Source: a virus. From it: 44,587 bases of DNA. Made by a program: the position numbers and the translations under genes. The stretch lies in the IMG/VR virus record IMGVR_UViG_3300030329_004103, positions 1-44,587 of that record. The stretch is one strand, 5' to 3'. Of this stretch, positions 523 to 16,212 are shown piece after piece (positions within the stretch are counted from its first letter, which is position 1; every line of letters starts with the position of its first letter). The notes under the pieces were generated by a model. That model was not told the origin of the DNA. It saw only the letters and a program-made list of their open reading frames with translations, and did no database searches.

Positions 523-586
523 GAGAAACAAAATGAAAATAACCAAAACGCAACTTAAACGAATTATCAAGGAAGAACTTGAGGCA
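488..586 (+). repeat. Direct repeat copy 1 (gp46 tail, RBS and N-terminal module)
   Basis: This segment covers the last codons of the gp46-like gene, its downstream AGGAG site and the first 18 codons of the next gene. It matches 973-1071 at a constant offset of 485 bases, with about six mismatches in the first 53 bases and further scattered ones after that. The two copies bracket the gene at 533-970. Confidence 0.85.
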
Positions 587-970
587 ACTTTGAACGAGCA
601 ATATGTGCCTAGTCGTATTGATCCTTCTTCAACGTCTTGGTTCAACGGACCTATTGCGCGCTTAAATAAAAAACAAATAAAAGATCTTCTTAAAGGGCCC
701 TGGGGAGGAGAGAAGGTGTCGACTTTAGCGCTAGCGCTGGCAGACTGGGATATCCATCCAGACCTGTCCGACAATCTCTGGCAGTCGGGTGTCGGCAAGC
801 ACCTGACCAGAGCGCAACAGTTTAAACTTGAAGATTGGTCCGTTGGCGAATTTGCACCAGGTGACAAAGAGGCCATCACCGCCGCCCGTAATAAGCTTGC
901 AGCCGCCGCCCTAGAAATGCTTGATTCAGGCGCACACCACCGCCAAGAGCCTGGAATGGGTCGATATTAA
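533..970 (+). CDS. Small protein with N-terminal capsid-targeting-like module
   Basis: The 145-residue product begins MKITKTQLKRIIKEELEATL and has L-N-E at residues 20-22, the site pattern (L/I-x-E) cut by T4-type prohead proteases. The rest (residues 23-145) is unlike anything I recognise: a Trp-containing mixed region, then an Ala-rich helix near the C-terminus. The start has AGGAG at 521-525. The gene lies between two ~99-bp direct repeats, so it looks like a mobile or duplicated cassette. Inference: a cargo protein packaged in the head with its first 22 residues removed. The function of the mature part is unknown. Confidence 0.75.
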   Translation: MKITKTQLKRIIKEELEATLNEQYVPSRIDPSSTSWFNGPIARLNKKQIKDLLKGPWGGEKVSTLALALADWDIHPDLSDNLWQSGVGKHLTRAQQFKLEDWSVGEFAPGDKEAITAARNKLAAAALEMLDSGAHHRQEPGMGRY

Positions 971-972
971 AA

Positions 973-1071
973 ACAAAAAACAAGGATACGCAAGGGTTAA
1001 TCAATAGGAGATTCAAAATGAAAATCACCAAGTCCCAACTTAAACAGATTATCAAGGAAGAGCTTGAAGCG
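973..1071 (+). repeat. Direct repeat copy 2 (gp46-tail remnant, RBS and N-terminal module)
   Basis: This is the second copy of the repeat at 488-586. Here the gp46-derived part (973-1005) is not translated, because the preceding gene has already stopped at 970. The copy keeps the vestigial gp46 3' end, the stop-plus-SD region (taggag) and the start of the next MKITK gene. Confidence 0.85.
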
Positions 1072-1242
1072 CTTCTCATAGAAGATGGCAAAGGCTGCGC
1101 TGACACTGATAAAGGCTGCATTCGCAAGAGAAAGTCTGGATGGGTGATTCTTAATAATAAAAAAGGTGGTGTCTGGAGAAAGTGCGATTCTCGTTCGCAC
1201 TGTGAGGACATCTTAGACGCATTTCACGCGTCAAAGGGTTAA
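1018..1242 (+). CDS. Small Cys-containing protein with N-terminal capsid-targeting-like module
   Basis: This 74-residue protein has the module MKITKSQLKQIIKEEL, ending L-I-E at residues 20-22. The predicted mature part is about 52 residues, basic, with four Cys (CADTDKGC and KCDSRSHC) and a Gly/Trp segment (GWVILNNKKGGVW), which could be a small metal-binding or disulfide-stabilised fold. I associate similar C-terminal domains with marine phage hypothetical proteins, but no function is known to me. The SD is taggag at 1005-1010. The next gene starts one base after its stop. Confidence 0.75.
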   Translation: MKITKSQLKQIIKEELEALLIEDGKGCADTDKGCIRKRKSGWVILNNKKGGVWRKCDSRSHCEDILDAFHASKG

Positions 1243-1243
1243 A

Positions 1244-1624
1244 ATGAAAATCACAAAATCCCAACTTAAACAGATTATCAAGGAAGAGCTTGAAAGTACA
1301 TTAAGCGAAGTTTATAACCTTCCCGGCTCTGTTTATGATTCTGAAGGAGAGCCTGAGATTGCATCTCCTTATAGAAAGAAACCAAAAAGAAGCTATGGAA
1401 GCGGAATCTCATCTGTCGACAAGCCGCGCCCTCCTCAAAGCGCAGAAGACAAAGCAATTAGTATGTATAAAGGGGTTTTACAGGGGTATTTGACAGACCC
1501 AAATACGGCAAGAAGACTTGGCCGGCCACCAACGTTGGAAGATGCCCTTAGAGCATTTATTTCTAATAGCCCTGAACTTATACAAAGAGCGGCTGATGAA
1601 CTTGAACAAGAAATGGAGCAATAA
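1244..1624 (+). CDS. Small protein with N-terminal capsid-targeting-like module
   Basis: This 126-residue protein starts with the same module, ending L-S-E at residues 20-22. It is followed by a Pro/Tyr/Ser-rich, probably disordered stretch to about residue 65, then a helical C-terminal domain ending in an acidic tail (ELEQEMEQ). The first 16 codons are nearly identical at the DNA level to those at 1018, although the mature parts are unrelated; this indicates exchange of a leader module. Its stop overlaps the start of the FtsZ-like gene by one base (TAATG), suggesting translational coupling. Unknown function; candidate packaged protein. Confidence 0.75.
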   Translation: MKITKSQLKQIIKEELESTLSEVYNLPGSVYDSEGEPEIASPYRKKPKRSYGSGISSVDKPRPPQSAEDKAISMYKGVLQGYLTDPNTARRLGRPPTLEDALRAFISNSPELIQRAADELEQEMEQ

Positions 1625-2763
1625 TGAGCAATAAAGAAAAAGATAATGAATTTGATTTTCTGCCCCCTGCAGAACCGCCACCCTCCTTTAATCAGGAGAA
1701 AGACCACTATCACGAAGAAGTCGCAGCAGCAGATTTCGGAATGGTTGAGGACTTTGGATTGCAGATGGAATACTCTGATGAAGATCTCCTCCCAGAAAAC
1801 ACTGCTCCTTCGTCTATTAACGTAGGCTTTGTTGGTGTCGGCGGTGGAGGTAATAAAATGGCCAATGCTTTTCTAGAACTTGGCTTCAACAAGACTCTGC
1901 TAGTGAATTCCACAGGCAAAGACATCCCAAAGAACGTGGAAGAAGATCACGTTGTTCTTATTCCTGATAGCGACGGCATCGGGAAGAACGTAGATTATGG
2001 TAAAGAGGTTTTCTCTACCAACGGCGCAATCGTAGAGGATGCATTGCGGATCAAACTTGGAAAGGTAGACTGGCTGTTTGTTTTAGCTGGTGGCGGCGGC
2101 GGAACTGGTAGTTCTGTGACTGCACTTCATCCGGTATTCGAACGCTATATGAAATCCGTTCAATCTTCTGGAAAAGTAGTGTATATTGTTTCCTGGCCCA
2201 CAGCACAAGAAAACCTTAACCCCACAATCGCTCGCAATGCGTTGACGCTGGCTAATGACGTAGCCAAGCATCCTCACATCATTCTTGATAACGAGCGCTC
2301 CACTCGCTTACTTCGCGGCAGAATTGGCATGCTTGGTATGTACCCTGTCGCCAACACACAATTTGCTAAGTCATTCGCCCAGGTGCTTAAACTCTCCACG
2401 GAGGATTCACCGATCCAATCTTTTGATAGTAAAGATCTGGAAACATGCTTGGGCAATGACGGGAGAGCTTTTCTCGGCTCGACCATGATAAAAGACCCAA
2501 ATACTGGAAAGCTTGGATCGGTGATCCTACACAACTGTATGAACAGATCAGCCTGCCCGCCACCTAAAGGAAAAGCCGCAGCCGGCTCCCTAATCTTGGT
2601 GGCATCTGAGGAAATGGTGGCAGATCCAAGAGTCAGCAAAAACATTGAGTCGGCAATCGCTTATGTCGGCGGTCGGTGCGAGACACTATTTTCTGGCGTT
2701 TACGTGCGCAAGAATGTGCCTGGATTGATTGCGATACTAAGTATGAATGGATTAGCAACATAA
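1624..2763 (+). CDS. FtsZ/tubulin-superfamily GTPase (phage tubulin-like)
   Basis: This 379-residue protein has an acidic, Pro-rich N-terminal extension (1-63) followed by a full FtsZ-like core. The first glycine loop is GVGGGGNK (71-78). The tubulin signature is AGGGGGTGSS (155-164). Next come NPTIARNALTLAN (199-211) and a DN-containing segment (DNERST, 222-227). The T7-loop region FDSKDLETCLGNDGRAFLGS (267-286) aligns with the FtsZ DFADVRTVM...ALMG segment and keeps two Asp. The second domain follows (320-379). The chain stops right after the last core strand, without the FtsZ linker and C-terminal peptide that bind FtsA/ZipA, so host divisome recruitment by that route is unlikely. It should bind GTP and polymerise. 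It is embedded among MKITK-module genes. Role (virion positioning, a cytoskeletal scaffold, or division interference) is open. Confidence 0.88.
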   Translation: MSNKEKDNEFDFLPPAEPPPSFNQEKDHYHEEVAAADFGMVEDFGLQMEYSDEDLLPENTAPSSINVGFVGVGGGGNKMANAFLELGFNKTLLVNSTGKDIPKNVEEDHVVLIPDSDGIGKNVDYGKEVFSTNGAIVEDALRIKLGKVDWLFVLAGGGGGTGSSVTALHPVFERYMKSVQSSGKVVYIVSWPTAQENLNPTIARNALTLANDVAKHPHIILDNERSTRLLRGRIGMLGMYPVANTQFAKSFAQVLKLSTEDSPIQSFDSKDLETCLGNDGRAFLGSTMIKDPNTGKLGSVILHNCMNRSACPPPKGKAAAGSLILVASEEMVADPRVSKNIESAIAYVGGRCETLFSGVYVRKNVPGLIAILSMNGLAT

Positions 2764-2774
2764 GGAATAATGAA

Positions 2775-2990
2775 ATGAAGATTACAAAGTCTGAACTCAA
2801 GCAGATTATTAAAGAAGAAGCAGATAGTGTTTTAGACGAAGTTTATGCTGAGCAATCCCCGGATGCGCGCTGGTGGTCTCAAGCATTCAATATGATTATC
2901 GAAGACGAGATTGGGTACGGAGAGCCTACTGATGAGCAAAGAGAAGCGATTCTTACAGGTTTAAAGATGGTGATGGAACAGTTAAAGTGA
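2775..2990 (+). CDS. Small protein with N-terminal capsid-targeting-like module
   Basis: A 71-residue protein. An upstream in-frame GTG exists inside the FtsZ-like gene, but the ATG at 2775, preceded by aaggaat, is chosen because it restores the conserved module MKITKSELKQIIKEEA...VLDE, with L-D-E at residues 20-22. The mature part (about 49 residues) is acidic and helical, with WW at residues 33-34 region and a C-terminal helix ending VMEQLK. Its stop overlaps the next GTG start (GTGA). Unknown function. Confidence 0.72.
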   Translation: MKITKSELKQIIKEEADSVLDEVYAEQSPDARWWSQAFNMIIEDEIGYGEPTDEQREAILTGLKMVMEQLK

Positions 2991-3379
2991 AAATTACAAA
3001 ATCCCAACTTAAGCAGATTATCAAAGAAGAGCTTGAAGAAGCGCTTGGCGAACGTGAAGTTTTAGTTCGTGGGTTTGGAAAGCTTACATTAAGTCAAATT
3101 GAAAGAAGATTGGTTGAGATGTTGCGTGAAGCTGGCGAAGGAGCTATGAAAGATCCTCCAGATTTCTATAATTTAAAAACTGGCATGATTCAAGCTTTTT
3201 ACGAAGCTTACAGGCTCCATAAAGATGAAGAAAGAATTAATGAAGTCTACTCTGAAAAACAAAGAAGATACATGTGCGCCATGAAAGACGCAGATGCTAA
3301 TGAGAGACCCGAAGGTCTTTCTCAGAAAGAGGCCGAAGAACAATGTAAGGGCCCTATGAAGAAAAAGAAAAAGGATTAA
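2987..3379 (+). CDS. Protein with N-terminal capsid-targeting-like module and Lys-rich C-terminus
   Basis: This 130-residue protein starts at GTG with MKITKSQLKQIIKEELEEAL and has L-G-E at residues 20-22. A helical middle follows, then a segment (YSEKQRRYMCAMKDAD... LSQKEAEEQCKG) with two Cys, and a terminal K-rich run (MKKKKKD). I associate the YSEKQRRYMCAM-type segment with recurrent small domains in marine phage proteins, but know no function. The basic tail could bind DNA, consistent with a packaged protein; that is inference. Confidence 0.72.
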   Translation: MKITKSQLKQIIKEELEEALGEREVLVRGFGKLTLSQIERRLVEMLREAGEGAMKDPPDFYNLKTGMIQAFYEAYRLHKDEERINEVYSEKQRRYMCAMKDADANERPEGLSQKEAEEQCKGPMKKKKKD

Positions 3380-3382
3380 ATA

Positions 3383-3574
3383 ATGAATTATGTACAAGGA
3401 AAATTAGATAGATTAGTAGAGAAGGCAATTTCTCGTAAGTTTATGGTCTGGTTGACGGCAACAGGCTTGTTGGCGTTTTCTGATCTGGCATCTGGCGATT
3501 GGGTAATGATCTCGGCCATCTACATTGGTGGTCAAGCTATTATCGATGGTATTGCTAGAATGAAAGGGGTTTGA
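3383..3574 (+). CDS. Small two-TM membrane protein, putative holin
   Basis: This 63-residue protein has two hydrophobic segments (about 20-37 and 41-58) and short charged ends; the second contains a YIGGQAIIDGIA-type sequence that I associate with phage holin-like proteins. It is directly followed by a spanin-like gene (TGATG overlap), which supports a lysis role at the inner membrane. No endolysin gene is next to it. Alternative: a small membrane protein of unknown function. Confidence 0.6.
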   Translation: MNYVQGKLDRLVEKAISRKFMVWLTATGLLAFSDLASGDWVMISAIYIGGQAIIDGIARMKGV

Positions 3575-3984
3575 TGGTCAAAATTGATTGGGCAAGTGTT
3601 TTAACATTCATAAAAAGAAACTGGAAAGAAATAACAATTATTGTTCTTTTACTTGCAGTTATTGGCAAAATGCGTTATGATTATAAACAACTTGAGAATA
3701 CCTATGAAGCTAGTCAACAATCTCTCCAAAACCAAATCGACGGCTTGCAAGAAATACACGCTGAAGAATTGCAAAGAAAAGAAAATGCATTACAAACTTA
3801 TCGCGATGCATTAGAATTATTGGAGAGACAATATGAGCAGGACAGAGGTAAGATTGAGGTTGTGGTTGAAGAACGAATTGTGGAAATTGAGACAACGATC
3901 GACAACCGAAAACAGTTCACAGAAAACAAAGAAGAACTCGCAGAACAAATAACAGACACATTCGGATTTCAGTATGTTCCTTAA
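3574..3984 (+). CDS. Membrane-anchored coiled-coil protein, putative inner-membrane spanin (Rz-like)
   Basis: The product is about 136 residues. It has one N-terminal transmembrane segment (ITIIVLLLAVIG, about residues 19-31), followed by a long charged, predicted coiled-coil periplasmic region. This is the architecture of i-spanins, which help disrupt the outer membrane at lysis. A TTG at 3571 is possible, but the ATG at 3574 is better placed after AAGGGG. The 3' end overlaps the next gene by 11 bases in another frame, and overlapping genes are typical of spanin pairs. Confidence 0.6.
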   Translation: MVKIDWASVLTFIKRNWKEITIIVLLLAVIGKMRYDYKQLENTYEASQQSLQNQIDGLQEIHAEELQRKENALQTYRDALELLERQYEQDRGKIEVVVEERIVEIETTIDNRKQFTENKEELAEQITDTFGFQYVP

Positions 3985-4387
3985 AGCACTATTATTTTCC
4001 ATGGTGGCTTATGCCGAGCCGCCACAGTTTACTATTGTCGGTCAAGATGAGCCAGCACCCTTTGAGGGTGTTTTGTTTAATAAGCGAGGCATTGCAGAGT
4101 TGCTTGTTATGCCGCTTGATTATCAAATGCAGTGTGATTTAGAAGTTGAATATCAAATAGATGTGCAGGCTACTGAGTTTCAACTTGAGCGTGAAAATTT
4201 TCAAATTCGCTTAGACGCACTCTCTAAAGAATACGATTTGCGTATAGAACAAAAAGACATCGAGATCGCCGCTTTACAAGAAGCAATGCTAAAGCAGTCG
4301 CCTAACAACAAATGGTGGTGGTTTGCCGGCGGAATTGTAGCAGGTGTTAGTGTTACATATGCTGCATATAGAGGTTTCAGTGAGTAA
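3974..4387 (+). CDS. Exported coiled-coil protein with C-terminal TM, lysis-cluster protein
   Basis: This 137-residue protein has a short signal-peptide-like N-terminus (MFLKALLFSMVAYA, probable cleavage after AYA) and a folded region around residues 20-50. A coiled coil covers about 55-105, and there is a C-terminal transmembrane helix after a WWW triplet (about 115-130). The start lies inside the upstream spanin-like gene. It sits where an outer-membrane spanin partner would be, but no lipobox Cys follows the signal, so a classic lipoprotein o-spanin is not supported. The topology suggests an envelope-spanning lysis or envelope protein. Function uncertain. Confidence 0.6.
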   Translation: MFLKALLFSMVAYAEPPQFTIVGQDEPAPFEGVLFNKRGIAELLVMPLDYQMQCDLEVEYQIDVQATEFQLERENFQIRLDALSKEYDLRIEQKDIEIAALQEAMLKQSPNNKWWWFAGGIVAGVSVTYAAYRGFSE

Positions 4388-4763
4388 GGATCCAAATAAA
4401 ATAGCCGCTATTGAAAAAGCAATTGCTGAGAAATACGGCAAAGAGACTATCCAGAATCCACGCGGAAACTGGGATGAGAATAAAGAAAAAGAGTATCTTG
4501 AGCAATCGCGCGAGTTTTATAAAAAAAAATATAAAAATGATGAATGGCAAGAAAAAATACAGGTTAATGGTATTAAGATCTCAAAAAAACTACTTAATAG
4601 AGAATCTCTAAGATGTTGTCCTGTTTGTGGCTTGCTGCCTCAAAGTTCTCGGGATGATGTTTGTTTTGTTAAATTTGATTGTTGCAATAAATGTTACATT
4701 CAATATGTTGAAGGAAGAGAAGATAGATGGCTAAAAGGATGGCGCCCAAATGAAACTAAATAA
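4380..4763 (+). CDS. Conserved phage protein with Cys-rich zinc-ribbon-like domain
   Basis: This 127-residue protein starts at GTG 4380, overlapping the upstream stop, because the sequence MSKDPNKIAAIEKAIAEKYG fits a typical N-terminus. The N-terminal half is helical and charged. The C-terminal part has C-C-x-x-C (CCPVCG, around residue 81) and a second pair in a DCCNKC motif, followed by YIQYVEGREDRWLKGWRP. The paired CxxC motifs suggest one zinc site. I associate this protein with marine T4-like phages as an uncharacterised conserved gene. It could be a nucleic-acid or polymerase-binding factor, which is inference. Confidence 0.7.
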   Translation: MSKDPNKIAAIEKAIAEKYGKETIQNPRGNWDENKEKEYLEQSREFYKKKYKNDEWQEKIQVNGIKISKKLLNRESLRCCPVCGLLPQSSRDDVCFVKFDCCNKCYIQYVEGREDRWLKGWRPNETK

Positions 4764-5061
4764 AGATAATCTTAAACAACTTATTTATGAGGCTTTGTTG
4801 GCTGAGATTGAGCAAGACGAAAAAATGACTACAGCGTCAGTGACAAAGCACGCCGTAGACCAAAAAAAAGCAATGGTACAAGGAGGCATTGATGACAAAG
4901 AGCGCTCTGCGATCGCAACAGTCTCCAGAAAGTTGGCTATGGCAGCTAAGGCCGGCAACCTTTTAAGCGGGAATCTTGCTATTCGTCTTCGTAATCTGAT
5001 AGATGAAATTGACAAAACTCTCAAAGATGTAAACACTACTCAACAAGGAGACAAGCAGTAA
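4750..5061 (+). CDS. Small protein with divergent N-terminal capsid-targeting-like module
   Basis: This 103-residue protein begins MKLNKDNLKQLIYEALLAEI, a clear variant of the MKITK module with the same hydrophobic spacing. L-A-E at residues 17-19 offers a prohead-protease-type site; residue 22 is Gln rather than Glu. The rest is helical, with a basic middle and an LRNLIDEIDKTLKD helix. It overlaps the upstream gene by 14 bases and the next start by one (TAATG). Unknown function; weaker candidate cargo protein. Confidence 0.65.
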   Translation: MKLNKDNLKQLIYEALLAEIEQDEKMTTASVTKHAVDQKKAMVQGGIDDKERSAIATVSRKLAMAAKAGNLLSGNLAIRLRNLIDEIDKTLKDVNTTQQGDKQ

Positions 5062-5597
5062 TGGCAACAGTATACGAAATAGTACAAGGGCTTTCACAGG
5101 CCGCCGCAAACGCTTATGATGGCGCCCTCGGTGAAGATTTAGAGCCTATAAAGGCCGGCCTCCGAAGAGAAGAAGGTAATGCGCTTATTGATCAGCGCGT
5201 GATGGATGGCTTTAATGTTAAGTTTTATGGAAACATGATGTGCTTAAGTTATCATTCCGAAATTAAACTCAAAGAGGTTTATGCTAGCGGTTTTGAGGGA
5301 GAAATGGAACAGCGCTTATCTGAAATCAAAGGCTGGTTAACTAAAGAATATAAACGAATCACTGGAAATTCAGTTGGGTTATCCGAAGTTGGCGAGATTG
5401 ATGTTAGAGTTGAAAACTCGTCCCGTGTTCGTTCATGGGTAACTGCAAAAATGCACTACAAAGTAGGCGGCCTTTCCGCAGATATGAATGATGATAACAG
5501 CGGCTCGTTACATGCGCCAGAAGCTAGTTGGAAAAGCTTTCTTGATCAGGGAGGATTTGGAACTCGTCCCGAAAACGACACAAGGAAGAAGGGTTAA
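5061..5597 (+). CDS. Conserved hypothetical protein upstream of terminase
   Basis: This 178-residue soluble protein has no motif I can name. The N-terminus (MATVYEIVQGLSQAAANAYDGA) is helical, and the central part alternates strands and helices. The C-terminus is Gly/Arg/Lys-rich and probably disordered. It lacks the MKITK module. It is translationally coupled on both sides (TAATG overlaps). Its position just before the packaging genes suggests a head or packaging accessory role, but nothing in the sequence proves it. A small terminase is expected in this area, yet I see no convincing gp16 features. Confidence 0.65.
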   Translation: MATVYEIVQGLSQAAANAYDGALGEDLEPIKAGLRREEGNALIDQRVMDGFNVKFYGNMMCLSYHSEIKLKEVYASGFEGEMEQRLSEIKGWLTKEYKRITGNSVGLSEVGEIDVRVENSSRVRSWVTAKMHYKVGGLSADMNDDNSGSLHAPEASWKSFLDQGGFGTRPENDTRKKG

Positions 5598-6076
5598 TGA
5601 AAATCACCCTTGAAAGATTGCGAGAGATTATTACTGAGGAAGTTATCAAAGAGGAGCTTGCTCCTGACATAGCTGCGCCAGCCATCGCCGCAATGCTTCA
5701 AGGATCTGAAGCTGAAGTTACTTCGGACATCTTTGGTGCTGTATTTGATCAGATGTACGGTGAGGGCGCTTTAGACGCTGAGGCAGAAAGAATGGCCAAT
5801 GCTGGAGAACCAGAAGAAGAAAGCTTCCCCACCGACTATCAGGCCGGCGGTGCTTATGGCGATCGCCCTAAAATAGGATTTAAAGAAGAGATCGCTCAAA
5901 TTGTTAGAGAAGCTTTTGAAGGCTTGGAACTATCTGACTCAGAACTTGAAAACATGTCTGATAGAGAGCTTATTGACGTAGCTCATCAAGATGGTGTCGA
6001 GGAATTTATAGTCTTAGATCTAGAAGGCGATTTAGCCAATCGCGATGAAGTTTTAGCGGCTCTGAAAGATGTATGA
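5597..6076 (+). CDS. Acidic protein with N-terminal capsid-targeting-like module
   Basis: This 159-residue, strongly acidic protein starts MKITLERLREIITEEVIKEE, a divergent copy of the module; I-K-E at 17-19 is a possible protease site. It continues with an Ala-rich segment, a disordered EPEEESF region, and a helical C-terminal domain with a second module-like helix (FKEEIAQIVREAFEGLEL). Its strong acidity resembles prohead core proteins. The stop overlaps the terminase start by four bases (ATGA). Unknown; candidate core or cargo protein. Confidence 0.65.
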   Translation: MKITLERLREIITEEVIKEELAPDIAAPAIAAMLQGSEAEVTSDIFGAVFDQMYGEGALDAEAERMANAGEPEEESFPTDYQAGGAYGDRPKIGFKEEIAQIVREAFEGLELSDSELENMSDRELIDVAHQDGVEEFIVLDLEGDLANRDEVLAALKDV

Positions 6077-7659
6077 GTTTCCAACTATCCAAACAAGAAA
6101 AAGTCAAAGAGATACTTAAGTGTGGAAAAGATCCCTCCTACTTCCTTAACAACTACGCAAGAATATCGCACCCATTACATGGACTTATTCTTTTTAACAC
6201 TTTCGACTTCCAAGACGACCTTCTCAAAGATTTTAATGATTACCGTTTTAACGTTATTCTAAAAGCTCGTCAGCTAGGTATCTCAACTATTACCGCTGGC
6301 TATATCGTGTGGATGATGCTATTCCATCGCGATAAAGCCATTCTTGTTATGGCAACCAAGTTTGCAACAGCAGGAAACTTGGTTAAGAAAGTTAAGAACA
6401 TTATGCGGAATGTTCCCGATTGGTTGAAGATTGCGCAGATCAGCGTTGACAACCGCACCTCGTTTGAGCTTTCTAATGGCTCTTCCATCAAGGCGGCTTC
6501 TACTTCTGGAGACGCAGGCCGTTCGGAAGCCCTGTCGCTTTTGGTGTTGGATGAGGCTGCGCATATTGAGGGGTTAGAAGAGTTGTGGACTGGATTGTAT
6601 CCGACGCTATCAACGGGTGGGCGCTGTATTGCGCTTTCTACGCCCAATGGTGTGGGTAACTGGTTTCATAAAACTTGCACCGACTCCGAAGCCGGCTCGA
6701 ACAACTTTAACTTAACTACTCTCATGTGGGATGTCCACCCCGATAGAGATCAAGAATGGTATAAGAAAGAAACTAAAAACATGTCTAAACGGCAAATTGC
6801 TCAAGAACTTGAGTGCAACTTCAACACATCTGGCGAAACTGTTATAGACCCTGAATGTATGGAGTGGATGCTGTCTACAGTTCGCGAACCAAAGTATAGG
6901 ACCGGCTTTGATAGGAACTTTTGGATTTTTGAAGAGTTTGATCCTTCGTGTAATTATCTGTTAGTGGCCGATGTCTCGCGCGGCGACGGAGCTGATTTTT
7001 CTACATTTCAAATCATAAAGCTTGAGACACTTGAAATTGTAGGAGAATACCAAGGAAAGCCAACACTAGACATGTACGCTAATATGCTAAACAGCGTAGG
7101 TAGAGAGTATGGCGGGTGTATGCTGGTAGTTGAAAATAATAATATTGGATATTCTGTTTTAACAAAACTCACTGATGATTATCAATATCCCAATGTGTAC
7201 CATTCAATTAAATCAACTCACGAATATATAGAACAACATCAAGCAGAAGTTAGAAACTCAGCAGTTCCAGGCTTCACTACCTCTATGAAGACCCGACCGC
7301 TCATTGTGGCCAAATTAGAGGAGTTTATTAGAAACAAACTAATTACCATATATTCTTCTCGGACAGTTAACGAGATGAAAACTTTTATTTGGAGGAATGG
7401 TAAGCCGCAAGCGATGAAAGGTTACAATGATGATTTGATTATGGCGCTCGCGATAGGGTGCTGGGTTAGAGACACCGCCCTGCAGGTCAACGCGCGAGAT
7501 TTAAACTATCAAAAAGCTTTCATTAACGCAATATATACAACCAAGACTACTATGAATACGCAGATTAAAGGACAAATAGGCTATAAAAAAGACGAAATAT
7601 TTGATAAAATGTCTGAAGCTGAAAAATTATATAGCCAATATAAATGGATCATAAAGTGA
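6073..7659 (+). CDS. 17: Large terminase subunit (gp17-like)
   Basis: A DNA-packaging motor ATPase and nuclease of 528 residues. The ATPase domain has a Walker A variant KARQLGIST (64-72), Walker B LLVLDEAA (156-163) and coupling motif ALSTPNG (187-193). The C-terminal RNase H-like nuclease has catalytic acids in LLVADVSRGDGADFS (Asp300), VVENNNIG (Glu354) and YNDDLIMALAIG (Asp453/454). The length and lack of an N-terminal extension fit marine T4-like gp17. It docks on the portal, encoded next, and cuts concatemers into headfuls. A separate small terminase is not recognisable nearby. Confidence 0.95.
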   Translation: MSFQLSKQEKVKEILKCGKDPSYFLNNYARISHPLHGLILFNTFDFQDDLLKDFNDYRFNVILKARQLGISTITAGYIVWMMLFHRDKAILVMATKFATAGNLVKKVKNIMRNVPDWLKIAQISVDNRTSFELSNGSSIKAASTSGDAGRSEALSLLVLDEAAHIEGLEELWTGLYPTLSTGGRCIALSTPNGVGNWFHKTCTDSEAGSNNFNLTTLMWDVHPDRDQEWYKKETKNMSKRQIAQELECNFNTSGETVIDPECMEWMLSTVREPKYRTGFDRNFWIFEEFDPSCNYLLVADVSRGDGADFSTFQIIKLETLEIVGEYQGKPTLDMYANMLNSVGREYGGCMLVVENNNIGYSVLTKLTDDYQYPNVYHSIKSTHEYIEQHQAEVRNSAVPGFTTSMKTRPLIVAKLEEFIRNKLITIYSSRTVNEMKTFIWRNGKPQAMKGYNDDLIMALAIGCWVRDTALQVNARDLNYQKAFINAIYTTKTTMNTQIKGQIGYKKDEIFDKMSEAEKLYSQYKWIIK

Positions 7660-7667
7660 GGAAATAA

Positions 7668-9692
7668 ATGGCAACAAAAAATCCAAAGCAAGGACGAAAT
7701 CCTGTAAATAGACAGTCGCAATTATTTCAAGCGCTTACAAGATTGTTTTCGGGCCCTATTGTTAACTATCGTTCTCAATCTGGCCGACGCATCAGAAGAC
7801 AACATCTTGATAAATTTTCTTCACGATTTAAATCTGCTTCAGGTCAGCAGTTTAAAAAGTCGATGTATAGCCCGCTGGACACGATAGCCACAAATGCTAT
7901 AGCAAATCAGCGCCGAACTGAGAGATACGTTGATTTTGATCAAATGGAATACATGCCTGAGATTGCATCAACTCTTGACATCTATGCTGATGAAATGACG
8001 ACCTACTCTTCTTTAAGGCCGATGCTCAATATTAATTGCGCAAATGAAGAAATAAAAGCCGTATTGTCAATCTTGTTCGATAATGTCTTAAACTTACAGT
8101 ACAATCTTTTTGGTTGGGCGCGCACTATGTGCAAGTATGGTGATTTCTTTTTATATCTAGACATCGACGATAAGTTTGGAGTGCAATCCACAATTGCGCT
8201 ACCATCTCCAGAAATAGAAAGATTAGAAGGAATGGATGCAACTAATCCAAACTACATTCAATACCAATGGAATAGCGCCGGAATGACGTTTGAAAATTGG
8301 CAGGTTGCTCATTTTCGTGTACTGGGCAATGATAAATATGCCCCATATGGAACATCTATTCTTGAGCCAGCTCGCCGCATTTGGCGGCAGCTAACACTTA
8401 TGGAAGATGCAATGATGGCTTATCGAGTTGTTCGCTCTTCTGAGCGCAGAGTATTTAAGATTGATGTCGGAGCGATCCCTCCTAATGACGTAGAGCAATA
8501 CATGCAAAAAATTGTAACTCAGCTAAAAAGACACTCTGTCGTTGATCCTACATCTGGTCGTGTTGATTTACGATACAATCCGATGTCTATTGAGGAAGAT
8601 TATTTTATTCCTGTGCGGGCAGGTTCTGCAACTGATATTGTGTCGCTTGCAGGTGCACAAAATATCACAGCTATTGATGATATCAAGTATCTGCGCGACA
8701 AGTTATTTGCCGCATTGAAAATTCCACAGGCTTATTTATCAATGGGCGAGGGTGCAGCCGAGGATAAGACAACTTTAGCGCAAAAAGATATTAGATTTGC
8801 AAGGACGATTCAACGGCTGCAAAGAGTTATCATAGCTGAGCTTGAAAAAATTAGCATTATTCATCTTTATACTCTTGGCTTTAGAGGTGACGATTTATTA
8901 GGCTTTAGTTTGTCCTTGAATAATCCTTCTAAGATAGCTGAGCTTCAAGAAATCGAACACTGGAAGGCTAAATTTGATATTGCAGGCGCCGCCACTGAAG
9001 GATACTTTTCTAGACGTTGGGTTACAGAGCATATCTTTGGAATGTCGGACGAAGAGTTTATTCGCAATCAGCGTGAAATGTACTATGATCGCAAGCATGA
9101 TGCCGCATTAACTGCAGTCGCTGAAGCTGCTGCAGCTGGCGAAGGCGGCGGCTTGGGCGGCGGCCTTGGTGGTGACCTAGGGGGCGATCTTGGCGATGAC
9201 CTAGGTGGCGATCTTGGCGACGACCTAGGTGGCGATCTTGGCGGTCCAGAAGAGATGCCAGCCGGTGACGCCGGCGCAGATACAGAAGCAGGCGGTGAAG
9301 ACGACTCGCCACTATTGGCAGTACCCCCAGGAAGCCGAAACTCTCCTAGAGTTACACCTAAATCTAAAGGAAAAGCATACACCCCAGTTAAAACAGATAA
9401 GCGCAAACAGGGCGCCCGAACTAGACACATGCAGAGCCAATGGGCAAAAGAAAAATCATCCAATACAATTAGAAACACTATTCCGGGAATGGCTGACATT
9501 GCTACTTTGGCATCGCCAGCAGCCGGAAGGGGTATTTATGAACAAAATGAATCTATTTACTCAATGAAAGAACAGATTGAAGAACAAAAAATCTTTCAAG
9601 TTAATAAAAACATAAGACAATTAATTGAAGAGCTGGATAAAAAGAAAGATATATCGACAGCGGAGAAAAAGAATGAAAACAAAGCACAATAA
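7668..9692 (+). CDS. 20: Portal protein (gp20-like)
   Basis: This 674-residue protein forms the dodecameric DNA gate and prohead initiator. The T4-type portal core includes EIASTLDIYADEMTTYSS, the APYGTSILEPARRIWRQL region, the crown/stem segment DDIKYLRDKLFAALKIPQAYL and an E-D-K-T-T-L motif. After about residue 490 there is an extended low-complexity Gly/Asp/Leu tract made of 24-bp DNA repeats, then a Pro/Lys linker and a helical tail. The tract is unlike the T4 C-terminus and may be a flexible insertion. The gene lies directly downstream of the terminase, as expected for packaging partners. Confidence 0.93.
   Translation: MATKNPKQGRNPVNRQSQLFQALTRLFSGPIVNYRSQSGRRIRRQHLDKFSSRFKSASGQQFKKSMYSPLDTIATNAIANQRRTERYVDFDQMEYMPEIASTLDIYADEMTTYSSLRPMLNINCANEEIKAVLSILFDNVLNLQYNLFGWARTMCKYGDFFLYLDIDDKFGVQSTIALPSPEIERLEGMDATNPNYIQYQWNSAGMTFENWQVAHFRVLGNDKYAPYGTSILEPARRIWRQLTLMEDAMMAYRVVRSSERRVFKIDVGAIPPNDVEQYMQKIVTQLKRHSVVDPTSGRVDLRYNPMSIEEDYFIPVRAGSATDIVSLAGAQNITAIDDIKYLRDKLFAALKIPQAYLSMGEGAAEDKTTLAQKDIRFARTIQRLQRVIIAELEKISIIHLYTLGFRGDDLLGFSLSLNNPSKIAELQEIEHWKAKFDIAGAATEGYFSRRWVTEHIFGMSDEEFIRNQREMYYDRKHDAALTAVAEAAAAGEGGGLGGGLGGDLGGDLGDDLGGDLGDDLGGDLGGPEEMPAGDAGADTEAGGEDDSPLLAVPPGSRNSPRVTPKSKGKAYTPVKTDKRKQGARTRHMQSQWAKEKSSNTIRNTIPGMADIATLASPAAGRGIYEQNESIYSMKEQIEEQKIFQVNKNIRQLIEELDKKKDISTAEKKNENKAQ
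9159..9245 (+). repeat. Tandem 24-bp repeat inside portal gene
   Basis: This stretch contains near-exact 24-bp units (9183-9206, 9207-9230 and a partial third, plus a degenerate unit upstream) encoding repeated GDLGDDLG-type residues. It stays in frame, lengthening an acidic, flexible Gly/Asp/Leu tract in the portal C-terminal region. Copy number could vary between related phages through slippage. Confidence 0.8.
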
Positions 9693-10506
9693 AAAAAGAA
9701 ACACAGCCTTTATTTATGAATCTCTCATTAGAGAAGCCACGGCCGCCATGATAAAAAATGATAACGTGCGAAAAAATAAAGCTGTTAATTTAATTAGAAA
9801 GCACTTTCACGACGATTCTGTTCTTTTACAGCATTTGAAATGCTATCAATCTTTATATGAAAATCAGGACATTAATAAAGAAACAGCAGAAAAGATTTTA
9901 AAAGAAGCTAAGATTGCGAGTCGAGTTTTAGATGCTCATGGGCTATTTGTTAAGCAATCTGATTTAATCAAAGATGTTAATAAAGATTTAAGTCCTGAGT
10001 TTTTCAACACTTTTGTTCCAAATTATAAAACACTGGCAAGTATATATCAGATATTTTCAAACAAATCTTCTCCTCGACAAATTGTAATGCTTGAAAAAAA
10101 GATTGTCGATGATATGATAATGGCTAAAGAGCCCGTTGCGTTGTTGGAAGATATTGATAATGTTGTTTATTCTACTTTTGTTGAGAAGTTTAATCAAAAA
10201 TATGACTCAACATTATTGCAAGAACAAAAACAATTATTAGGATGCTATATATCATCTTTTATTGACAATGGTTTAGATCTTAAAACATATTTAAACTCTG
10301 AAATCAGACGCCTTAAGGAAAGTCTCGCCGATTCTTTAAGCTCTGATGAAATTAAGCAAGACGAGAACATGGTTCGAAAGACCAACAAGATTATCGAAAA
10401 GTTAGAAAACTACAAAAGCCAGCAGATAGATGAACAATCATTGTTAACAATTTTAAAAATACAACAATTAGTTAAGGAGATCTCTGACGATGCCGATAAA
10501 GGTTAA
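9673..10506 (+). CDS. Conserved head-region protein, unknown function
   Basis: The product is 277 residues from the ATG at 9673, chosen because it gives MKTKHNKKRNTAFIYESLIREA with a nearby GGAG; an upstream in-frame start within the portal gene would add 16 very basic residues. It is mostly alpha-helical and Lys-rich, without recognisable motifs. It occupies the position between portal and protease where T4 has gp67/gp68 core genes, but it is much larger. It is probably a virion or prohead-assembly protein; that is inference from position only. Confidence 0.65.
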   Translation: MKTKHNKKRNTAFIYESLIREATAAMIKNDNVRKNKAVNLIRKHFHDDSVLLQHLKCYQSLYENQDINKETAEKILKEAKIASRVLDAHGLFVKQSDLIKDVNKDLSPEFFNTFVPNYKTLASIYQIFSNKSSPRQIVMLEKKIVDDMIMAKEPVALLEDIDNVVYSTFVEKFNQKYDSTLLQEQKQLLGCYISSFIDNGLDLKTYLNSEIRRLKESLADSLSSDEIKQDENMVRKTNKIIEKLENYKSQQIDEQSLLTILKIQQLVKEISDDADKG

Positions 10507-11029
10507 AATTGGCAAAGGTGCCAATCAGGCAACTGTACGCTTAGAGATGGATATCCGCAAAAGTGTAGCGGGAAATCTAATGATTTTTGATCACGGAGAT
10601 ATTGACATTGTTCTTTCGGCGAAAGAAAACAAAGTCATTGCTTTTCCTAAAGAGGTTATGAGCGAGATGGTGTACGGCGCCCAGAACCGATTATTTTCTT
10701 ATTTGCACAAAAGGGGCATTGTGATCCCAGAAAGCATACAAGGCGGCTCGTACTTTGGCTCATTTGAGGCAACGTTACAATCTCCATTTACTGAAAGTGT
10801 CAATGCAGCAAAAATGGCCTTAATAAATATAAATGAGTTTATTAATGAGGAGCGCCCATACTTTGAATCAACCGAGGCGATTGTGTCAATGACAGATGAC
10901 GAACTTACTCATCCTGATAAAACTGATTCTACTGAGCTTGGAGAAGTACCTCAGAAAGTTGATCAAGGCTCTATTCGCCCCGGGTATGTTCGCGATCCCT
11001 ATTCGCTAAACTATATGTATACAATATAG
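10490..11029 (+). CDS. Conserved head-region protein, unknown function
   Basis: This 179-residue protein overlaps the upstream gene by 17 bases. The N-terminal half looks beta-rich (IKVKIGKGANQATVRLEMDI, IDIVLSAKENKVIAFP) followed by helices. The C-terminus ends in an extended segment (GYVRDPYSLNYMYTI) typical of virion arm peptides. No named motif is visible. Its position between portal and prohead protease suggests a structural or assembly role. Confidence 0.65.
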   Translation: MPIKVKIGKGANQATVRLEMDIRKSVAGNLMIFDHGDIDIVLSAKENKVIAFPKEVMSEMVYGAQNRLFSYLHKRGIVIPESIQGGSYFGSFEATLQSPFTESVNAAKMALININEFINEERPYFESTEAIVSMTDDELTHPDKTDSTELGEVPQKVDQGSIRPGYVRDPYSLNYMYTI

Positions 11030-11039
11030 GAACAAAGTT

Positions 11040-11261
11040 ATGTCCGACATTAAATTGATATTTGAAAACTGGAACAAAGCAATGTTTGAAGTAGAAGAGC
11101 AGCCTCCACAAAACAAGTCTGTAATATTCGATGATGTTAATAAGGAGGCGACTAACATAGTAAAAAAAATACGCACAGCGTCTAAAAATGATGATAACCT
11201 GGCGAAAGAAGCAATAGAGTCGCTAATAGTCGCTCTGCAAATTAGTTTGAGGAATTTGTAA
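11040..11261 (+). CDS. Small head-region protein with possible targeting leader
   Basis: This 73-residue protein starts MSDIKLIFENWNKAMFEVEE. The leader resembles the short T4 capsid-targeting peptides (aromatic residues followed by hydrophobic-x-Glu), with M-F-E around residues 15-17, although the fit to L/I-x-E is imperfect. The C-terminal half is an amphipathic helix. Size and position, just upstream of the protease, suggest a core protein analogous to T4 gp67/gp68, without detectable sequence similarity. Confidence 0.6.
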   Translation: MSDIKLIFENWNKAMFEVEEQPPQNKSVIFDDVNKEATNIVKKIRTASKNDDNLAKEAIESLIVALQISLRNL

Positions 11262-11563
11262 TGGAGCTTTTAACGTTTATACTTTGCGCTTATGGGCTCA
11301 CGCAAATTCTTGTCTACGGCAAGATATTTTCGAAACTAAGACCTAAAAAGGGCAAGCTTGGAGAACTCGCCAACTGCGCGATGTGTATGGGTTTCCATGT
11401 AGGCTGGGCATTAATGCTACTTTCTCCGTTTACTGAACTATTTAGTTTTGATGTAACTGTGTTTAATTTCTTTCTTTTAGGGGGATTATCGTCAGGCACA
11501 TCATATATTTTAACTATGCTCTTCGGAGATGATGGAGTGAAACATGACCACAAGTTGGACTAG
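11261..11563 (+). CDS. Small integral membrane protein with CxxC motif (DUF1360-like appearance)
   Basis: This 100-residue protein has hydrophobic segments at about 4-20, 43-55 and 66-87. The sequence GELANCAMCMGFHVGWALM has the C-x-x-C-x-G-[FW]-x-x-G arrangement I associate with DUF1360-type membrane proteins found in phages. It starts on the upstream stop (TAATG). A membrane protein among prohead genes is odd, since T4 proheads do initiate on the inner membrane through gp40/gp20. A role in anchoring assembly is possible but speculative. Confidence 0.6.
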   Translation: MELLTFILCAYGLTQILVYGKIFSKLRPKKGKLGELANCAMCMGFHVGWALMLLSPFTELFSFDVTVFNFFLLGGLSSGTSYILTMLFGDDGVKHDHKLD

Positions 11564-11609
11564 CAAATGGATGCTGCAGCCCGTTCGTCGTTGCTGTAAA
11601 GGATCGTGA
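11544..11609 (+). CDS. Possible 21-residue micro-ORF upstream of prohead protease
   Basis: ATG at 11544 has GGAG at 11534-11537 (6-base spacing) and encodes MTTSWTSKWMLQPVRRCCKGS. It overlaps the end of the membrane-protein gene and stops three bases before the gp21 start. The product is basic with adjacent Cys. It could be a real micro-protein or a translational relay for gp21; small size makes chance hard to exclude. Confidence 0.35.
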   Translation: MTTSWTSKWMLQPVRRCCKGS

Positions 11610-11611
11610 CT

Positions 11612-12217
11612 ATGGGAAAGAAGTTATTAAGAGAATATTATGAACTCTGCGAAGGTGGAGTTTGTCAAGATCTTCTTACTGAAGCCGAGAAAAGATTTGT
11701 GGCTGAAGGTGGTATGATTTTGACAGGAAAGCTACAAGAAGCTGATGTGCAAAACGGCAATGGTAGAATTTATCCTCAACGTGTGTTGATGCGTGAGATG
11801 AAAAACTACCAGAAACTTGTTCAAGAGCGCAGAGCACTTGGTGAGCTTGACCACCCTGAAGATTCTGTAATTAATCTTAAGAATGCATCACACATGGTTA
11901 CAGATGTATGGTGGGACAATAAAAATGTCATGGGCAAAGTACAAGTTTTAAATACTCCTTCGGGAGGCATACTTAAGTCTCTTGTAGAATCTGGAGTTAA
12001 ACTTGGCATTTCTTCTCGGGGAATGGGATCTGTTACTGAATCTCAAGGCCGTACCATTGTTGAAGATGATTTTCAACTTATTTGTTTTGATTTTGTGTCT
12101 GAGCCTTCTACTCCTAATGCTTTTATGATGCAAGAGGCTAAAAATTTTAAGAACAATGTTTTTACCAAAGCCGATCGTATCAATAGATTATTGAACGAGG
12201 TTTTGGACGATGAGTGA
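11612..12217 (+). CDS. 21: Prohead maturation protease (gp21-like)
   Basis: A serine protease of the T4 gp21/herpes-assemblin type, 201 residues. Candidate catalytic positions are His81 in GELDHPED and the Ser in LGISSRGMGS (about 135). The N-terminus has L-L-T-E at 21-24, a plausible self-processing site. In T4 this enzyme cuts head proteins after (L/I)-x-E and digests the core. ATG 11612 is preferred to the in-frame GTG at 11606 because AAAGGA lies 8 bases upstream. The cleavage rule is central to interpreting the MKITK-module proteins in this window. Confidence 0.92.
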   Translation: MGKKLLREYYELCEGGVCQDLLTEAEKRFVAEGGMILTGKLQEADVQNGNGRIYPQRVLMREMKNYQKLVQERRALGELDHPEDSVINLKNASHMVTDVWWDNKNVMGKVQVLNTPSGGILKSLVESGVKLGISSRGMGSVTESQGRTIVEDDFQLICFDFVSEPSTPNAFMMQEAKNFKNNVFTKADRINRLLNEVLDDE

Positions 12218-13571
12218 CTGGAGCAGCTTCAAAGATGACAAAAAACTGGTTGACGCATGGCGTCGTTTTTTAACTGAAGAAGAGGAGAATATTTCTTCTA
12301 ACGATATCGTCGCTGAGGTAAATTGGGTCCAAGGCTTAAAAGGCGCAGGCAATGTGGTCAAAAAAATCGGTGGCGTTGCACTGGACATTGCAATTCTCCC
12401 AGTCCGTGCTGCATTCGCGATCGATCATATGAGCCCGCAAAGATTTGCTAGCGCCATAGGCCTACGAGACACCGTGAGTACTTCAACGCCAAGCGGATAT
12501 TCAAAGGGAGGCCGAGAAGCAGCTGAGCGCAACCGTCTTGTTAAAGCAGAAATGCGCGAAGCCGCAATAGAATATAAACGTCAACAGGCTTTGCAGAAAG
12601 AAATAGAAAAACAACAAAAAGATGCGCCGCCTGACCTACAAGCAATGTTTGAAGCAATCACCACAGAGCTAGGACAAGCTTCGCAAGAAATAAACAATAA
12701 CAGTATCTCAGAGTCGAATCGAAATTTATCAGATCGTCTTCGCTCAATGGTGGATCGCTACGAGGATGCCCAAAACCAGAGAGCAGCAAAAGGAGTTGAT
12801 GAGGCCAAGGTGGAGAAGATTGATGAACTACTTAAACAGAAACTTCAGGCACTTGTTGAAAAGATAGAAACACTTAACTTAGACGAAAACGCCAAAAAGA
12901 AAGCACTCGCAAAAGCCCAAAAATATATTAAAACTAATCGACTCATGATGTTGTCTCAAGTAAAGCACGCATCTTTACAAAAAGCAGCGTCGGATAAAAT
13001 TGCTCAGCATGATGCCGCTTCAAAAGAGCAAGAAGAGGCTGAAGAAAATGGCCAACAAGAGCCTGAAGAAAATGGCCAACAAGAGCCTGAACAAACTGAC
13101 CAACAAGAGCCTCAGACCCCGGCTGCTAGTTGGAGCGTCGATCCGAGAGACGATAAGCTTCGCGACATCTGGAAGCGGTATGCTGAACTCTATAGCCGCA
13201 CTGATGTGGCACAATATAAGGAAGGCGTAAAAGAATGGGTCGACTGGATTGGCAAGTTTCTTCCGCGAGACTTTGACAAGCTTGACGCTGGTGATAAGTT
13301 CAATAAGTTTAAAGAACTTCTCGATGACACACAAATGGATTTGAATAAACCTGAAACCGATGCATTTAAGGCCCTGCACAGGGCAATGGAACAACAAAGC
13401 GGCCATGGATACGATCAAGGCGAACTTAATGCTATTAAGCTTACGCAATTTTTAGATGCTATAAAGCCAGTCCAGCCAACAACAGACAGTAATGTACAGG
13501 AGCAAAAGTCCTTATCCTTAGAGCAACTAATTAAAGAAGAATTATTGAGAGTATTAAATGAAAAAAAATGA
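12210..13571 (+). CDS. Large internal/core-like head protein with putative targeting peptides at both ends
   Basis: This 453-residue protein starts with KKLVDAWRRFLTEEEE, resembling a T4-type capsid-targeting peptide with L-T-E at residues 21-23. It ends LEQLIKEELLRVLNEKK, which matches the MKITK-module helix (QIIKEELEALL) and carries L-N-E just before the terminal KK. Between them are a hydrophobic/basic segment (about 45-75), a long charged helical region, and an acidic Gln/Glu repeat (about 278-301). It overlaps gp21 by 8 bases and the next gene by 14. It looks like a prohead core or internal protein processed by gp21; exact role unknown. Confidence 0.7.
   Translation: MSDWSSFKDDKKLVDAWRRFLTEEEENISSNDIVAEVNWVQGLKGAGNVVKKIGGVALDIAILPVRAAFAIDHMSPQRFASAIGLRDTVSTSTPSGYSKGGREAAERNRLVKAEMREAAIEYKRQQALQKEIEKQQKDAPPDLQAMFEAITTELGQASQEINNNSISESNRNLSDRLRSMVDRYEDAQNQRAAKGVDEAKVEKIDELLKQKLQALVEKIETLNLDENAKKKALAKAQKYIKTNRLMMLSQVKHASLQKAASDKIAQHDAASKEQEEAEENGQQEPEENGQQEPEQTDQQEPQTPAASWSVDPRDDKLRDIWKRYAELYSRTDVAQYKEGVKEWVDWIGKFLPRDFDKLDAGDKFNKFKELLDDTQMDLNKPETDAFKALHRAMEQQSGHGYDQGELNAIKLTQFLDAIKPVQPTTDSNVQEQKSLSLEQLIKEELLRVLNEKK
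13041..13112 (+). repeat. Three tandem 24-bp repeats
   Basis: Two identical 24-bp units (13041-13064, 13065-13088) and one diverged unit (13089-13112) encode an acidic (E)ENGQQEP-type linker in the head protein. They are in frame and probably form a flexible spacer before the C-terminal domain. Confidence 0.9.
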
Positions 13572-13983
13572 TTTAAAAAAACTGATTAAGCCGCTTGTTA
13601 AGGAGTGTATCCATGAAGTTCTTTTAGAAGAAGGTCTTTTATCTAATGTTGTAGCTGAAGTAGCAAAAGGCATGCAAGGAAACCTTGTTGTTGAAACACA
13701 ACAAAAATCTAACGATTCTCTATTTACTGCAAGCCCTCCGCAAAAACAACAAGTGGCAGAAACTCGGAAGAAGATGCAAGAACACCGTCAAAAACTTATG
13801 AAATCAATTGGCTCTGACGCATATAATGGTGTCAATCTTTTTGAAGGCACTGAAGCTATTTCTAACCATGAAGCCGCCCCCACACGTGCCGGCGCTGTTG
13901 ATTTGGGAAATCCAAAAGATGCTGGTGTTGATATCTCAAGTCTTGTGGGCGGCGCTTCACAAATCTGGAAAGCAATGAAATAG
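13558..13983 (+). CDS. Head-region protein with module-like N-terminal helix
   Basis: This 141-residue protein begins MKKNDLKKLIKPLVKECIHE, similar in pattern to the MKITK module, with I-H-E at 18-20 and L-L-E at 22-24 as possible protease sites. The rest contains a Lys/Gln-rich helix (RKKMQEHRQKLMKSIG), an SDAYNGVNLFEGTEA segment and a C-terminal GVDISSLVGGASQIWKAMK motif that I have the impression recurs in marine phage proteins. It starts inside the upstream gene. Probable virion or core protein; function unknown. Confidence 0.65.
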   Translation: MKKNDLKKLIKPLVKECIHEVLLEEGLLSNVVAEVAKGMQGNLVVETQQKSNDSLFTASPPQKQQVAETRKKMQEHRQKLMKSIGSDAYNGVNLFEGTEAISNHEAAPTRAGAVDLGNPKDAGVDISSLVGGASQIWKAMK

Positions 13984-13990
13984 GAATAAG

Positions 13991-14236
13991 ATGAGTAAAA
14001 AAATAAATGTATCGGTAACGGCACGCGAATGTCGCAACAATAACGAGCGAATCATTAAGAAATTTATGAAGAAAGTCAAGAAAGAAAGAATCATAGAGCA
14101 AGTAAAAGATAGAAGAAGATATAAAAAACCATCTGTTGCCAAAAAAGAAAAGCGGGTTAGAGCTGAACGTACTCGACAGCGGGACAGGCTTAAGAGACAA
14201 AGAGCACAAGAAAGACGTAATAGAAAAAATAGATGA
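13991..14236 (+). CDS. Ribosomal protein bS21-like protein
   Basis: An 81-residue, very basic protein. Its pattern matches bS21 along its length: an initial strand (INVSVTAREC), a helix with N-E-R-I-I-K-K-F-x-K-K-x-K-K-E, then I-x-E-Q-V-x-x-R-R-R-Y-x-K-P-S, and an Arg/Lys helical tail. E. coli bS21 is 71 residues and sits on the 30S subunit near the 16S 3' end. Phage-encoded bS21 is documented in marine phages. It could replace host bS21 and bias initiation toward phage mRNAs. It lies inside the head gene cluster, so late expression is likely. Main alternative: a basic DNA-binding protein. Confidence 0.75.
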   Translation: MSKKINVSVTARECRNNNERIIKKFMKKVKKERIIEQVKDRRRYKKPSVAKKEKRVRAERTRQRDRLKRQRAQERRNRKNR

Positions 14237-14244
14237 CTATTTAT
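14236..14244 (+). promoter_or_regulatory. Late-promoter-like motif ACTATTTAT
   Basis: ACTATTTAT lies 38 bases upstream of the ATG at 14274, directly after the bS21-like gene. It is one of about ten sites of this pattern preceding late genes. There is no recognisable -35 element, as in T4 late promoters. It is the reverse complement of ATAAATAGT. Confidence 0.6.
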
Positions 14245-14273
14245 ATTTGTAAACAAATTTCGGAGGTTTTATA

Positions 14274-14699: not shown

Positions 14700-14703
14700 T
14701 TAG

Positions 14704-15387: not shown

Positions 15388-15405
15388 TATAGGGAGTGGT
15401 GAAAA

Positions 15406-16029: not shown

Positions 16030-16212
16030 TTTTGTACAGATTTGCCAAAACCTTCTAAATGTTATGTTCGGTGCCTAAAAAAACTTATTTGAGACTATAA
16101 GAAAAACTATTTATCAATGAGGGCGAGTTTTATCTTGTTCTCAAATTTGGATAAGTGTATCTATGCTTATCGTTTAAACCATAAAAAACTATTATTATGG
16201 AGGGTTTTATAA
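16030..16212 (+). other. Intergenic leader region
   Basis: This 183-base non-coding stretch, one of the longest in the window, separates two fibre-like genes. It holds an ACTATTTAT motif (16106-16114), a weaker ACTATTATT (16188-16196) and a GGAGGG ribosome-binding site just before the next ATG. I see no convincing intrinsic terminator or structured RNA. Confidence 0.6.
16106..16114 (+). promoter_or_regulatory. Late-promoter-like motif ACTATTTAT
   Basis: An exact ACTATTTAT lies 107 bases upstream of the ATG at 16213. The 5' leader would be unusually long compared with the other sites, so a second weaker site near 16188 may also act. Confidence 0.55.

Follow-up and report, generated by a model that had tools for sequence, protein, structure and literature searches.

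The window and its leader module

We describe a short protein module, referred to here as the leader, that is encoded repeatedly in a viral DNA stretch of 44,587 nucleotides (IMG/VR record IMGVR_UViG_3300030329_004103, positions 1 to 44,587; "the window" denotes this whole stretch). The window belongs to a distant T4-like virus and encodes a gp20-type portal, a gp21-type protease and a gp23-type capsid protein as well as a family A DNA polymerase. Five of its genes, starting at positions 533, 1018, 1244, 2775 and 2987, encode proteins with near-identical first 16 residues and with L-x-E at residues 20–22 in each, and the shared module looks like a new version of the capsid-targeting sequence (CTS) of phage T4. 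The five copies are as follows:

533 to 598, plus strand: N-terminal leader module MKITKTQLKRIIKEELEATLNE of gene 533–970
1018 to 1083, plus strand: N-terminal leader module MKITKSQLKQIIKEELEALLIE of gene 1018–1242
1244 to 1309, plus strand: N-terminal leader module MKITKSQLKQIIKEELESTLSE of gene 1244–1624
2775 to 2840, plus strand: N-terminal leader module MKITKSELKQIIKEEADSVLDE of gene 2775–2990
2987 to 3052, plus strand: N-terminal leader module MKITKSQLKQIIKEELEEALGE of gene 2987–3379, with a GTG start

The common start and the L-x-E motif had been noticed in an earlier reading of the same DNA (hereafter, the original prediction), and the starts and sequences of all five copies are confirmed. 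Fourteen of the 22 leader columns are invariant among the five, including L20 and E22. The further claim that the proteins are unrelated beyond the leader also holds, in that conservation drops after residue 22 and the five proteins are unlike one another past that point. Divergent versions of the leader had been proposed for three additional genes:

4750 to 5061, plus strand: divergent leader protein MKLNKDNLKQLIYEALLAE, with homologues in 8 loci, several of which have canonical leaders
5597 to 6076, plus strand: composite leader protein consisting of a leader, a conserved region, a second IIKEEL-type module at about residues 92–105 and a hypervariable C-terminal part
13558 to 13983, plus strand: conserved protein in the head gene block with a leader-like N-terminal helix MKKNDLKKLIKPLVKECIHEVLLE, present in 89 loci, the window included

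These three starts are real, but the L/I-x-E motif sits elsewhere than at residues 20–22; the nearest matches are L-A-E at 17–19, I-K-E at 17–19 and L-L-E at 22–24, respectively. AlphaFold2 models of low confidence place an N-terminal helix at residues 3–41 of the 13558 protein (mean predicted local distance difference test, pLDDT, 62; predicted template modelling score, pTM, 0.25) and at residues 5–18 of the 5597 protein (mean pLDDT 64, pTM 0.27). Homologues of the composite protein encoded at 5597–6076 are found in 41 loci.

Spread and conservation of the module

The DNA fetched for this study, which comes from uncultured T4-like viruses, contains 492 unique leader proteins with a median length of 116 amino acids, and the parts that follow the leader (the cargo) fall into 338 clusters. 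A degenerate search of IMG/VR indicates that at least 183 loci encode the leader, and every long contig tested (26 of 26) carries 3–13 copies. Chance origin of the shared leader is excluded because a single profile fits 322 non-redundant leader proteins from the loci fetched first. The information content of the leader amounts to 2–5 bits at residues 1–5 and 7–16, about 0.9 bits at residues 20 and 22, and at most 0.2 bits from residue 23 on. Residues 1–16 are amphipathic in pattern (L8, I11, I12, L16). As in T4-type CTSs, what the proteins have in common is a short N-terminal segment carried by otherwise unrelated sequences.

The leader is specific to viruses. Among 84,980 species genomes of bacteria and archaea it is found at only two loci; at one of them (L272) its neighbours are genes for terminase, portal, protease and capsid, and in the assembly that contains the other (L273) a phage protease and a phage portal share one contig. 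A cellular origin of the leader, which we considered, is therefore rejected. The second locus, on contig PBIO01000025.1 of a Halobacteriovorax metagenome-assembled genome, contains the densest array seen, with approximately 20 leader-module matches in about 11 kb (~6400–17400), and the assignment of the contig to this genome may hint at the host, though misbinning is possible. No paper containing the core peptide KQIIKEEL appeared in the literature searched. A tblastn search of cultured phages with leader queries gave no match, but these queries are insensitive and also missed the leader of Flavobacterium phage immuto, which is discussed below.

The L-x-E motif at the end of the leader

The core of the leader itself contains an I-x-E (I12-K13-E14) in 98% of leaders, which the original prediction overlooked, and consequently the bare presence of L/I-x-E is weak evidence. 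The frequency of the motif at the leader end can, however, be compared with column-permuted sets: of 440 non-redundant leaders, 217 have [LI]-x-E with the glutamate at residues 19–25, compared with 120 in the permuted sets (z 14.6), whereas spacings of 1, 3 and 4 between [LI] and E show no excess (z −1.6, 0.4 and −1.2, respectively). The register of the motif floats, as 125 of the 303 leaders that lack [LI]-x-E at residues 20–22 have it elsewhere (75 expected, z 9.4). At the middle position of [LI]-x-E there is an enrichment of Asn and Ser, and directly after the glutamate one of Gly and Gln. The motif [LI]-x-E at residues 18–25 is present in 60% of 320 leaders, and the more permissive [LIMV]-x-E in 77%.

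Association with the head genes

The original prediction stated that a gp21-like protease is encoded in the window, and profile matches confirm it. The relevant genes of the head module are:

11606 to 12217, plus strand: gp21-type prohead protease (Peptidase_S77; PF03420, E 2.6e-32; phrog_207, E 8e-56), the proposed processing enzyme
18918 to 20042, plus strand: scaffold-like protein, so named by its position before the major capsid gene, ending in LQE-RMKRLAGIK
20075 to 21886, plus strand: gp23-type major capsid protein with an invariant LLRE followed by a variable residue, which aligns with the FLTE-A site of T4 gp23

Co-occurrence of the leader with the protease, which had been proposed as a check, was assessed in 43 contigs picked by the leader alone; the protease-fetched loci L110, L120, L128 and L148 were left out. 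A gp20-type portal is present in 32 of the 43 contigs and a gp21-type protease in 30 of those 32. The remaining two (G010 and G012) have the portal at the contig end, so that the position of the protease is not covered. Wherever the portal lies inside a leader-selected contig, therefore, the protease is encoded by the same virus (30 of 30). By comparison, 2,531 of 50,697 cultured-phage records match the protease of the window. In the other 11 contigs no portal, protease, capsid or terminase was detected, where the capsid search matched nowhere and its negatives are accordingly weak. These 11 contigs are uninformative rather than counter-examples and lend no support to an occurrence of the leader in virus types lacking gp21, since they lack portal, capsid and terminase along with the protease.

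The leaders also tend to lie near the head genes. Of the 86 placements among the matches listed, 60 lie no more than 15 kb from the portal, where 23% would be expected (circular-shift p 0.0001). Some contigs (G007, G015) have leader clusters far from the head genes.

Internal and C-terminal copies and a second tag

The module is not confined to N-termini. One copy, overlooked in the original prediction, lies beside the protease gene, where the open reading frame (ORF) 12210–13571 ends in the leader helix (SLEQLIKEELLRVLNEKK):

13503 to 13571, plus strand: C-terminal copy of the helix, QKSLSLEQLIKEELLRVLNEKK followed by the stop, on ORF 12210–13571 adjoining the protease

ORFs located just before the 13558-type gene end in the leader helix in the window as well as in L090, L088/L089 and L036, while relatives at that site end instead in an RWxxLAGI-type tail preceded by L-x-E. 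The final codons at this site overlap the next gene, and the overlap partly constrains the terminal NEKK. At another locus (L237) the module is internal, and the REVLVRGFG... domain starts at the same module position as in the window gene 2987.

A number of head-region ORFs, that of the scaffold-like protein among them, terminate in a second tag, (R/K)(W/M)xx(L/I)AGI (51 ORFs, compared with 3 in a scrambled control), and L-x-E-type sites lie at most 10 residues upstream of it in 30 ORFs. Phage immuto has this tag at the N-terminus of two small proteins and at the C-terminus of its scaffold (MW353176, near 25503 and 111664). These positions suggest, but do not prove, that both tags serve for docking to the prohead and that the cargo bears a copy of a core-protein tail. 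Because the helix ends the ORFs before the 13558-type gene and the LAGI tag of immuto is N-terminal on some proteins and C-terminal on another, it is possible, though doubtful, that the helix is a portable tag for prohead docking, functional at the N- or the C-terminus, and that this lineage loads with it an unusually large and constantly reshuffled set of injected effectors.

Cargo proteins

The cargoes of the five window genes are listed below with the numbers of fetched loci in which homologues are found:

599 to 970, plus strand: cargo of gene 533, 123 amino acids, homologue in 0 loci
1084 to 1242, plus strand: cargo of gene 1018, 52 amino acids, Cys-containing; 1 locus (L012), where a longer leader protein has the homologous domain at its C-terminus
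1310 to 1624, plus strand: cargo of gene 1244, matched by a homologous segment in 2 loci
2841 to 2990, plus strand: cargo of gene 2775, homologue in 0 loci
3053 to 3379, plus strand: cargo of gene 2987, the REVLVRGFG... domain followed by a C-terminal SEKQRRYMCAMKDA domain, homologues in 27 loci

The genes interleaved with them have homologues in 108–150 loci. The leader cargo is hypervariable and the leader genes turn over fast. Domains recognised among the cargoes include GNAT acetyltransferase, pentapeptide repeats, L,D-transpeptidase, DnaJ, leucine-rich repeats, polynucleotide-kinase-like AAA, RNase T-type exonuclease and DUF6321; most cargoes have no family match, and searches of Pfam and PHROGs assigned no function to the cargo of the window. 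The small Cys-containing domain at 3251–3379 (SEKQRRYMCAMKDA...) recurs behind leaders or C-terminally on leader proteins and belongs to the largest single-linkage cargo cluster (67 proteins); the window copy has no Pfam match.

Interpretation and alternative explanations

The end of conservation at residue 22, the floating [LI]-x-E excess, the co-occurrence with the protease, the clustering near the portal, the virus-only occurrence and the hypervariable cargo make it probable that the module is a CTS of a T4-related, mostly marine virus lineage and that it works like the CTS of T4. The capsid LLRE that aligns with the T4 site and the helix on the ORF adjoining the protease gene agree with this reading as well. 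The first 16 residues or so would form an amphipathic helix, one surface of which would dock the protein, while the prohead is being assembled, onto a putative partner in its core. The gp21-type protease of the same head module would then cut after the leader-end [LI]-x-E in most, not all, carriers, and the cargo, freed inside the maturing head and hence predicted to be present in the virion, would be ejected into the host along with the DNA. The cargo would comprise a fast-changing set of small accessory proteins that probably act as early effectors or in anti-defence.

Several observations weigh against this reading. Near the leader end, [LIMV]-x-E is missing from approximately 23% of leaders, and in some (EEL-SDYLSNIYKWC) the cargo begins at residue 17 and no site is present. 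Under column permutation V-x-x-E, A-x-x-x-E and K-E pairs likewise reach z values of 4–6, and because the permutation ignores shared ancestry, part of the L-x-E signal may reflect descent. Although the large majority of copies are N-terminal, 15 distinct copies scoring at least 10 bits have no start codon and are internal or C-terminal, and a cut at the C-terminus of ORF 12210 would take off two residues only, after LNE; such copies look like those of a docking helix rather than of a purely removable leader. Moreover, 69% of the cargo is acidic, while internal proteins of the T4 family are described as basic (PMC9026906), and the literature searched yielded no virion proteomics for any virus with the leader. 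A domain-boundary test based on leader masking gave a soft start at residues 15–24, but many of its "leaderless" targets had weak leaders and we set the test aside as evidence. The capsid targeting put forward in the original prediction stands as far as the sharp boundary, the L-x-E excess, the protease and the portal clustering are concerned, and is qualified by the carriers without a site and by the copies at other positions.

The same two qualifications, together with the C-terminal copy encoded next to the protease gene, speak for a helix that binds a partner in head assembly and stays on the protein, with L-x-E merely marking the end of the helix and the cargo reaching the head or virion unprocessed. 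Helix geometry alone is insufficient, however, to account for an L-x-E excess that is specific to a spacing of 2 and persists in shifted register, and conservation ends at residue 22; we consider such an uncleaved docking helix unlikely. A helix that acts outside the head, in dimerisation, in binding of host proteins or the host membrane, or in recruitment of accessory proteins to replication or lysis, would agree with the diversity of the cargo domains (GNAT, pentapeptide repeats, L,D-transpeptidase, DnaJ, leucine-rich repeats and kinase-like AAA) and with the clusters that lie far from the head genes. We regard it as improbable in view of the strict co-occurrence with the gp21-type head module, the clustering of leaders near the portal and the presence of the helix on the protein beside the protease.

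The original prediction offered docking to a phage FtsZ-like filament as an alternative, and an FtsZ-like gene (1624–2763) does sit between the leader genes of the window and occurs in 52 fetched loci. In 13 of the 26 long leader contigs, however, no FtsZ-like relative was found, and five of these 13 (G007, G013, G014, G017 and G025, the last of 162 kb) have a portal, a protease and 5–12 leaders, which makes this alternative hardly credible. Conservation of the 5' coding DNA itself, as a translation enhancer or a recombination hotspot with the peptide as a by-product, could be suspected from the window copies, which are near-identical in DNA (93% identity over 57 bp between the 1244 and 2987 copies), and from the A-rich codon bias of the leaders (ACA, TCA and AGA are over-used). 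Across loci, nevertheless, the codons at conserved residues vary (ATC and ATT at 0.47 and 0.46 for I12, GAG and GAA at 0.48 and 0.45 for E15), which indicates that the peptide and not the DNA is kept, and the internal and C-terminal copies are not at 5' ends. A nucleic-acid feature is thus very improbable.

Neighbouring genes

The gene at 1624–2763 encodes a divergent tubulin/FtsZ-like protein whose match to the Pfam tubulin family (E 4e-7) is just under the cut-off. The segment 3383–4387, between leader genes, contains possible lysis genes that are conserved in more than 100 loci, namely one for a small conserved membrane-like protein and one for an Rz-like spanin candidate (phrog_1152, E 5e-4). 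Downstream of the protease, at 13991–14236, lies a gene whose product resembles ribosomal protein S21 (PF01165, a match below the cut-off with E 2e-4), and an RpsU is annotated in the corresponding neighbourhood of Microcystis phage Mel-JY01.

Significance and comparison with known systems

Genes for phage-injected proteins are hard to recognise because they have no common sequence. If the capsid-targeting reading is true, profile searches with the tag would reveal injected proteins in uncultured T4-like viruses, the hundreds of tagged proteins, mostly of unknown function, would constitute a candidate list of early effectors and anti-defence proteins, and a second model besides T4 would be available for how a phage head selects its protein cargo.

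In T4, gp21 cleaves after L/I-X-E, and the CTSs are N-terminal propeptides of 10–19 residues on internal proteins (PMC9026906). The leader resembles the T4 CTS (of internal proteins IPI–III and Alt) in being a short, phage-specific and mostly N-terminal segment on unrelated hypervariable cargo, with a gp21-type protease encoded by the same virus; the L/I-x-E consensus of such proteases ends many leaders but not all. It differs in its length of ~22 residues, its sequence, its additional internal and C-terminal occurrence and its mostly acidic cargo, the packaging of which is a prediction, and there are up to 12–13 carriers per contig compared with three internal proteins and Alt in T4. In a stretch of the T4 head region that contains no internal protein genes, no match of the leader profile exceeds 6 bits. 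Giant phages have gp21-related prohead proteases (phiKZ gp175, SPN3US gp245) that remove propeptides from many packaged proteins, ejection proteins among them, a process like the one predicted for the leader.

By portal and protease, Flavobacterium phage immuto (MW353176) is among the closest cultured relatives, and its leader is the only weak relative noticed in a cultured phage. One small protein of immuto, encoded at 113144–113902, starts with MKKSQLRQIIKEALD (23.5 bits), and the capsid L-x-E site aligns as VSE. Unlike the window, immuto has a single clear leader, and two of its small proteins start instead with MKKQILSEQF(R/K)RMQ(K/F)LAGIITE, like the C-terminus of its own scaffold.

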